From assembly GCA_002127295.1 (NCBI GenBank), contig NFUV01000002.1, positions 620,001 through 684,000 on the forward strand: a DNA stretch of 64,000 nucleotides, read 5' to 3'. The stretch comes from Chitinophagaceae bacterium IBVUCB2. Its GTDB lineage: Bacteria > Bacteroidota > Bacteroidia > Chitinophagales > Chitinophagaceae. How positions within the stretch are numbered: position 1 is the stretch's first letter; each line of letters starts with the position of its first letter. Below are positions 45,568 through 45,880 of the stretch, in pieces. The notes beneath the pieces are model-generated. The model had not been told where the DNA came from, did no database searches, and saw only the letters and a program-made list of their open reading frames with translations. The translations under genes were made by a program, and so were the position numbers.

Positions 45568-45575
45568 TATCTTTG
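45568..45575 (+). promoter_or_regulatory. TAnnTTTG -7 box of rpsU
   Basis: TATCTTTG, exact match, 38 bases before the rpsU ATG, leaving room for the Shine-Dalgarno in the leader. Confidence 0.65.
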
Positions 45576-45595
45576 CAATCCTAAAAAAAATACCG

Positions 45596-45603
45596 AAGGA
45601 GGT
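45596..45603 (+). promoter_or_regulatory. Strong Shine-Dalgarno of rpsU
   Basis: AAGGAGGT, an eight-base complement of the 16S anti-SD, with 10 bases to the ATG. None of the other ribosomal, tuf or RNA polymerase genes here has such a site, so it stands out as regulatory. Confidence 0.88.
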
Positions 45604-45613
45604 ATAAAATTTT

Positions 45614-45811
45614 ATGCTGATTATTGATTCTAAAGACTGCGAAAACATAGACAAAGCTTTAAAGAAGTACAAGAAGAAATTCGAAAAATCTAAAGTGCTA
45701 CTTCAATTGCGTGAACGTCAGGCTTTCATCAAACCTTCTGTAAGACGCAGGGGCGAAGTGCTTAAAGCTGTTTACAAGCAGAACTTAGCCAGCGGCAAAA
45801 TCGAAAAATAA
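45614..45811 (+). CDS. rpsU: 30S ribosomal protein bS21
   Basis: 65 residues, basic, with the bS21 pattern of an N-terminal strand (LIIDSKDCENIDKALKKYKKKFEKS) and a long arginine/lysine helix (RERQAFIKPSVRRR). bS21 sits on the 30S platform near the 3' end of 16S rRNA. In Flavobacterium johnsoniae, published work shows that bS21 helps hide the anti-SD and that rpsU itself has a strong SD. The same arrangement is seen here. Followed by a strong terminator, so it is monocistronic. Confidence 0.97.
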   Translation: MLIIDSKDCENIDKALKKYKKKFEKSKVLLQLRERQAFIKPSVRRRGEVLKAVYKQNLASGKIEK

Positions 45812-45832: not shown

Positions 45833-45880
45833 AAGGATAGCAGCAAGTTGTATAACTTTGCTGCTATCCTTCTTTTATTT
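45833..45880 (+). terminator. Rho-independent terminator of rpsU
   Basis: Perfect 14-bp stem (45833-45846 with 45858-45871), 11-base loop that can pair further, then TCTTTTATTT. Confidence 0.9.

Follow-up and report, generated by a model that had tools for sequence, protein, structure and literature searches.

A Shine-Dalgarno element before rpsU that matches a lineage-specific 16S tail in a Chitinophagaceae bacterium, and other transcripts predicted to pair strongly with this tail

Introduction

Why does rpsU, the gene for ribosomal protein bS21, carry a near-perfect Shine-Dalgarno (SD) sequence in a stretch of Bacteroidota DNA whose other genes seem to do without one? The window, by which we mean the whole stretch of 64,000 nucleotides that was analysed, is G000:C2:620001-684000 of its assembly, and a sequence-only reading had proposed that the rpsU site fits a feedback loop known from Flavobacterium johnsoniae. 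McNutt et al. (2023; PMC9976891) demonstrated the feedback experimentally in F. johnsoniae, described extended rpsU SDs across the Bacteroidota and predicted the loop for about half of the Chitinophagales. In the proposed mechanism, the 3′ tail of 16S rRNA in a complete Bacteroidota 30S subunit would be hidden in a pocket of bS21, bS18 and bS6, so that SD sequences are ignored. A 30S subunit without bS21 would expose the tail, which could then pair strongly with the rpsU leader, and the output of bS21 would rise on such subunits until the tail is hidden again.

The site in the window is, in our view, probably the extended SD element of this published loop. This reading draws on direct observations. 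The site itself is seen, it matches the 16S tail of its own genome, it is conserved, a 16S core covaries with it in one genus (g80), and such sites are scarce. The loop acting through the rpsU SD is already known, and what we describe is a real, conserved and already explained feature in a further lineage. What is new here is that rpsU is not the sole strong-SD transcript, as some hsp20 genes and a stand-alone element also belong to this class.

The rpsU Locus

The features of the locus are as follows.

45568..45575, + strand: Bacteroidota-type −7 promoter-like box TATCTTTG, seen by eye in the sequence
45580..45613, + strand: putative short rpsU leader of ∼30 nt, its start placed from the promoter-like box only
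45590..45594, + strand: ATACC, complementary to GGTAT of the SD, a possible weak SD hairpin
45596..45605, + strand: extended Shine-Dalgarno AAGGAGGTAT, with 10 Watson-Crick pairs to the 16S tail AUACCUCCUU
45614..45811, + strand: rpsU, ribosomal protein bS21, 65 aa (PF01165, 3.2e-14)
45773..45775, + strand: Tyr54 codon TAC of rpsU, from the window sequence and the alignment to 7jil_z
45835..45879, + strand: long hairpin and T-rich tail 3′ of rpsU, a probable terminator, seen by eye

The strong SD had been placed 10 bases before the rpsU start, and this position is correct, with AAGGAGGT at 45596-45603 and the ATG at 45614 leaving a 10-nt spacer. The complementarity is longer than AAGGAGGT, reaching 45605. 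The rpsU ORF was also recovered by an S21 search, and its best solved relative by sequence is 7jil_z, from the F. johnsoniae ribosome (PMC9976891). The two proteins align without gaps over 59 residues, including Tyr54, which in F. johnsoniae stacks on A1534 (PMC9976891).

A lumazine-binding (riboflavin synthase) gene neighbors rpsU on the opposite strand, while a phage-integrase-family recombinase gene and an S30AE (hpf) gene lie downstream. The promoter-like box was judged against the Bacteroidota −7 promoter consensus, and a similar box, at similar spacing, is seen by eye ahead of many relatives' rpsU ORFs. The hairpin at 45835-45879 is absent from the output of a consensus terminator scan. 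With a promoter-like box before the gene and a hairpin with a T-tail after it, rpsU is probably transcribed as a short, monocistronic mRNA.

Pairing of the rpsU Leader With the 16S Tail

The 4.0-Mb, 3-contig assembly holds one 16S match, which ends in GGCTGGAATACCTCCTTTTTAGAG and has the tail GGCTGGAATACCTCCTTTTTA. The anti-SD core CCUCC is intact in this sole match. In the usual 16S tail, the bases directly before ACCUCC are UC; here these two positions, which lie outside the core, are AU. The altered bases are matched by the rpsU leader, whose SD ends in GGUAU, and pairing of the leader with the tail of its own genome (GGAAUACCUCCUUUUUA) reaches AAGGAGGUAU, comprising 10 Watson-Crick pairs and one G-U. 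The duplex has a predicted energy of −16.5 kcal/mol (ViennaRNA duplexfold) with its own tail and −13.9 kcal/mol with the canonical 16S tail. The rpsU element therefore appears, in comparison with this canonical tail, to be tuned through its GGUAU ending to the lineage-specific tail AUACCUCC. Autoregulation by bS21 requires a pairing energy below −13 kcal/mol, and the rpsU duplex lies below this value, bearing in mind that our −16.5 is from duplexfold and the values in PMC9976891 are from free_scan, so that the two are not identical in kind. With rpsU of this family, the known cases gain a lineage in which the site tracks the genome's own form of the 16S tail, which strengthens the published model.

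Scarcity of Strong SDs in the Genome

No comparable site had been seen at other window genes whose leaders were read, and scoring bears this out. Against the genome's own 16S tail, all 14 genes scored are at −6.3 kcal/mol or weaker: ribE (−4.0), xer (−4.2), hpf (0.7), tuf (−0.7), tyrS (−1.8), secE (−1.5 from a TTG start or 0.4 from an inner ATG), nusG (−1.7), rplK (−3.6), rplA (0.0), rplJ (0.1), rplL (−5.3), rpoC (−2.2), the hscA/dnaK-like gene (0.4), and rpoB (−6.3, scored 3 nt off its ATG). Compared with rplK, rplA, rplJ and rplL, the window's ribosomal protein genes scored, rpsU is the strongest.

These scores also bear on a simpler explanation. A strong SD can boost initiation on any ribosome whose tail is accessible, and the rpsU site might therefore do no more than keep translation of a short, abundant ribosomal protein mRNA constitutively high, outside any feedback. 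Against this, rplK, rplA, rplJ, rplL and tuf of the same window do without such a site, and F. johnsoniae ribosomes that lack bS21 translate rpsU better (PMC9976891). We regard constitutive translation as improbable and retain the reading of the site as the bS21 feedback element.

To extend the comparison across the genome, a sample of 244 kb was used, consisting of the window and nine 20-kb stretches, with 178 genes of at least 100 aa (rpsU, at 65 aa, is excluded by this length). Two of the 178 genes score −10 kcal/mol or below and one scores −13 or below, while a mock region further upstream of the same genes also gives 2 of 178 at −10. Five sampled genes are at −9 or below, none of them inside the window. 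The pattern AAGGAGG-N3-12-ATG occurs genome-wide at 65 places, compared with 97 for the reversed pattern, so AAGGAGG sites are not enriched before ATG. We read 63 of the 65 places as loci, the remaining two being rpsU and a site within the 16S gene, and at most of the places a longer ORF runs across the site in one frame or another. Gene starts that look plausible behind AAGGAGG are those of two Hsp20 proteins and one GreA (Pfam), and by eye at least five further starts are plausible (L015, L043, L045, L046, L050), with energies of −11.2 to −14.9. Both the 178-gene sample and the pattern count indicate that SDs are rare elsewhere in the genome, as bS21 autoregulation requires.

The sequence-only reading had staked itself on two points, that equally strong SDs are not found at many other genes and that the 16S anti-SD is not mutated. 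Each holds with a qualification. Comparable SDs do exist, yet they are few (two hsp20 genes, greA, a mini-ORF RNA and the roughly five starts above). In the 16S tail the core is untouched; the bases that differ lie beyond it and have their match in the rpsU leader.

Overall, the locus resembles the F. johnsoniae loop in its CCUCC core, its rpsU SD pairing below −13 kcal/mol, Tyr54 and the scarcity of SDs, all of which are present here, as well as in its probable short leader and single-gene transcript. The proposal of the sequence-only reading thus has support from the sequence. The locus differs in having AU beside the core (UC being usual) with an SD end, GGUAU, to match, in having a few other strong-SD transcripts in the genome, and in being known from sequence alone. 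Genes for bS18 and bS6 were located in the genome. In this organism the pocket would form, and the loop would run, as in F. johnsoniae.

Some further sites deserve mention. The greA gene (L059:2-430, − strand; G000:C3:229260-229275) is preceded by AAAGGAGGTGATT, at −13.9 kcal/mol. The strongest of the 178 sampled genes (L066:17275-17785, − strand) has AGAGGAGGTTTATAAATA before its ATG, at −13.3, and its product resembles Metal_resist/LTXXQ only weakly, with scores under the Pfam cut-offs. In rpsR of this genome (L231:1416-1456), a GGAGG lies inside the last rpsF codons, 9 nt before the ATG, and rpsF has no SD by eye. Strong rpsR SDs have been reported in other orders of the Bacteroidia (PMC9976891).

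Conservation of the rpsU Site

Here family f1 is taken as Chitinophagaceae and the order as Chitinophagales. S21 is present in 53 of 58 relatives searched, and leaders were read from 50 loci (48 leaders, two loci being unparsed) and from titled records (80 leaders). Within the genus of the window, where one locus (L258) was left unread, all 30 leaders have the SD, 27 as GG[AG]GG and 3 as AGAGG. The 16S tail was seen in 56 of 298 genomes of the order, and matched rpsU pairs were scored for 54 of these, two not being parsed. Against its own tail, rpsU reaches −13 kcal/mol or below in 30 of 32 genomes of f1 and in both genomes of f4, compared with none in f18 (0/11, g80 included), f8 (0/5), f3 (0/2) and f16 (0/2). 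With no scored site at −13 outside f1 and f4, the loop does not hold for the order as a whole. The two exceptions within f1 are G321 (−6.9), where the site is lost, and G285 (−10.7), and some named Chitinophaga and Ginsengibacter leaders also do without the rpsU site.

The ending of the SD is conserved as well. Of 168 unique leaders, 111 have the GG[AG]GG core, which is followed by TAT in 109, by TTT in one and by TAA in one. None of these 111 has TGA after the core, as would complement the canonical tail.

A purine-rich leader could match the anti-SD by accident or drift, and the mock regions, 2 of 178 of which reach −10, show that such matches arise. A site that is present in 30 of 30 genus leaders, that falls to at least −13 in 30 of the 32 genomes scored in the family and whose core covaries with the 16S core in g80 leaves this origin almost no probability, and we rejected it on the grounds of conservation.

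We also considered whether the ATACC-GGTAT hairpin is a conserved feature of the rpsU leader. Of 118 unique leaders, 62 have an ACC within the 13 nt that precede the SD, an enrichment over the 23.7 found on average, and 36 at most, in 1000 shuffles. Among leaders that lack an SD, ACC is found in 11 of 50, the shuffle average being 14.2. Folding z averages just −0.83, and the minimum free energy fold of the window's leader uses other pairs, so the hairpin is not adopted as a conserved feature. CCTCC, found in small-genome relatives, also stands behind the promoter box of L089, whose leader has no SD, and may therefore be part of the promoter region. Neither "hairpin" nor "stem-loop" appears in the main text of PMC9976891.

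Covariation of the 16S Core and the rpsU Site

In genus g80, the 16S end is ACCUCUUU, with a CCUCU core, in 3 of 3 genomes (G088, G219, G177), and the rpsU site is AAAGAGGU, with AGAGG, likewise in 3 of 3 (L204, L205, L206). The g80 rpsU duplex has an energy of −11.4 to −11.5 kcal/mol with its own tail compared to −8.5 with a CCUCC tail, though it falls short of −13. Changed anti-SD cores, UCUCC or UCUCU, are also found in G049, G073, G084 and G324, and rpsU in these genomes (L117, L221, L223, L209) has no SD. The rpsU site is missing (weaker than −10) from 17 genomes, four with a changed core and 13 with an intact one. In the sampled order, the compensated core of g80 is the only changed core found alongside an rpsU site. 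Changed cores thus occur mostly where the rpsU site is absent, as if rpsU helped to keep the anti-SD under selection, but because the genomes are related, both the covariation and the changed cores represent few independent events.

A similar case is known from Chryseobacterium and relatives, where the core UCUCA is accompanied by a matching rpsU SD (PMC9976891; PMC8710568, citing Jha et al., 2021). In both lineages an altered 16S core is mirrored by an altered rpsU SD, whereas the pair in g80 is CCUCU with AGAGG, of which we found no mention in the parts of PMC9976891 and PMC8710568 drawn on here. The g80 pair is a second natural core covariation and strengthens the published bS21 model. Three small-genome members of the window's genus (G002, G016, G030; L101, L104, L107) have the rpsU site AAGAGGT. 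From this site, a CCUCU core is predicted for their 16S rRNA; the 16S pattern has no match in these assemblies.

Strong SDs Before Some hsp20 Genes

Transcripts other than rpsU are predicted to pair with the 16S tail as strongly or more strongly, and exposed-tail ribosomes of f1 may read or bind further RNAs besides rpsU. The genome has four hsp20 genes; two have AAGGAGG before the ATG, and the pattern search lists none at the other two. PF00011 gave 101 matches in 58 relatives, of which 70 were fetched (30 loci, 40 regions) and 67 had a testable ATG. Starts at −10 kcal/mol or below number 8 of 30 loci and 2 of 37 regions, in total 10 of 67, from five families of the order. The strongest in-frame ATG was taken for hsp20 and background alike, and the 30 loci belong to the top-scoring PF00011 matches. 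The 10 of 67 compare with 2 of 178 sampled genes (Fisher p about 6e-5), a test in which the hsp20 rows are related to each other and the background is a single genome. The strong-SD hsp20 genes are L013:1498-1959 and L265:1350-1806 in the window's own genome and L259, L263, L269, L272, L275, L276, L277 and L423 in others; in L423, another ATG lies upstream of the one that carries the site.

A wider search with AAAGGAGGT-N3-11-ATG in nine family genomes found 86 places compared with 65 for the reversed pattern, which indicates that most AAAGGAGGT sites before ATG are chance. Among the 70 loci read, the products that recur across genera, judged by eye, are rpsU (3), Hsp20 (3) and a mini-ORF element (3).

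It is possible that rpsU, certain hsp20 genes, perhaps greA, and the mini-ORF RNA form a small set read by ribosomes with a free tail, switched on jointly by loss of bS21 or by heat. In its favor are the excess of strong hsp20 starts over the sampled genes, the AAGGAGG at two of this genome's four hsp20 genes, and the recurrence of rpsU, Hsp20 and the mini-ORF element among the 70 loci. In F. johnsoniae, the activation energy of wild-type initiation on rpsU is also high, at 42.9 kcal/mol (PMC9976891). Heat might thus free the tail and favor such mRNAs. Set against it, 57 of 67 hsp20 starts have no such site, hsp20 genes may move horizontally, a whole-genome scan of Flavobacteriales typically yields one strong-SD gene (PMC9976891), and the AAAGGAGGT sites are mostly chance. 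On this evidence we hold the set to be possible but less likely than not. Within the titles and abstract openings of open-access literature, we found nothing on hsp20 SDs in Bacteroidota or on an RNA of this kind.

A Stand-Alone Element With a Mini-ORF

The mini-ORF element was first seen, as a short element with AAAGGAGGTATTCATG, among the AAAGGAGGT-N3-11-ATG loci. We propose tentatively, and with somewhat less than even confidence, that it is a stand-alone RNA of ∼140 nt, found in many Chitinophagaceae, in which a 5′ complement of 14 nt to the 16S tail is followed by AUG and an ORF of 14-15 codons, and whose predicted folds either hide (in a hairpin with CAUGGANNCCUUC) or expose the SD and AUG. 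Its role would be to sense or trap 30S subunits left with a free tail by the lack of bS21, in one control network with rpsU and some hsp20 genes.

The copy in the window's genome lies outside the window.

L302:1388-1533 (core C2:289408-289505), − strand: stand-alone element

The exact 15-mer AAGGAGGTATTCATG occurs in 61 of 244 family genomes and 32 of 98 genera, compared with 4 of 244 genomes for a reversed control. It has 63 places, of which 51 were read; 47 are one homologous element and four are unrelated (L362, L363, L372, L431). With L342, from outside the sample, this gives 48 copies (L302; L359-L388 except L362, L363 and L372; L342; L432-L450). Flanking genes differ among most of 28 copies examined; related pairs with a flanking gene in common are few (L359/L360, L387/L388, L376/L378). 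By eye, the element is flanked by a promoter-like box and a terminator-like hairpin with a T-run, and so looks like its own gene.

Like Rfam families, the element is structured, with hairpins and a terminator-like end. Rfam release 15 gave no matches in L302, L309 or L342 at the gathering threshold, and among eight loci at E up to 5 there was none at the element and one chance-level match away from it. A class-wide search with a covariance model of the element found it in 2 of 396 genomes (G000 and G079), with 374 rows outside the listing and 13 of f1 within it; stricter filters applied and 10 candidates were scored for each genome listed, so that failure to find the element in other genomes counts for little. 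One 26-nt pattern had no matches in viral contigs.

The segment AAAAGGAGGTATTCATG is invariant in 48 of 48 copies, although the search fixed only its last 15 letters. Within it, AAAAGGAGGUAUUC complements the 16S 3′ tail (GAAUACCUCCUUUU) perfectly over 14 nt, as judged from the f1 genomes whose tails were read, and the predicted element-tail duplex averages −21.4 kcal/mol compared to −13.7 for the local fold. The complement abuts the AUG, and a full helix would leave no space before the start codon, which favors binding or trapping over ordinary initiation, or else partial pairing during initiation. The element may sense or trap free-tail ribosomes. If its RNA does bind free 16S tails, then bS21-deficient ribosomes would have a dedicated small RNA partner, and what such ribosomes read besides rpsU becomes directly testable.

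After the AUG, the mini-ORF has 15 codons in 40 copies and 14 in 8, ending in TAA (37), TAG (8) or TGA (3). A codon table of the 40 copies shows that the frame is kept and that changes are not mainly synonymous, so the peptide is not clearly under selection.

Two competing folds are predicted. In fold A, GGAGGUAUUCAUG pairs with CAUGGANNCCUUC inside the ORF, with 96.8% of cells paired; the 5′ side of this helix was fixed by the search, so it can display no covariation and a shuffle control is uninformative. Fold B consists of three helices, ACAGAU/AUCUG, UGGA/UCCA and CGGUUAG/CUAACCG, with 92.5% of cells paired. Two-sided changes occur in 26 cells of fold B compared to 8.4 in shuffles, and 0 of 500 shuffles are as high. 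All 26 are in the third helix, 19 of them at one pair. Five pairs of fold B have two-sided changes, a number reached by 9 of 500 shuffles, and the copies compared are related. Folding z-scores of five copies range from −3.65 to −5.42.
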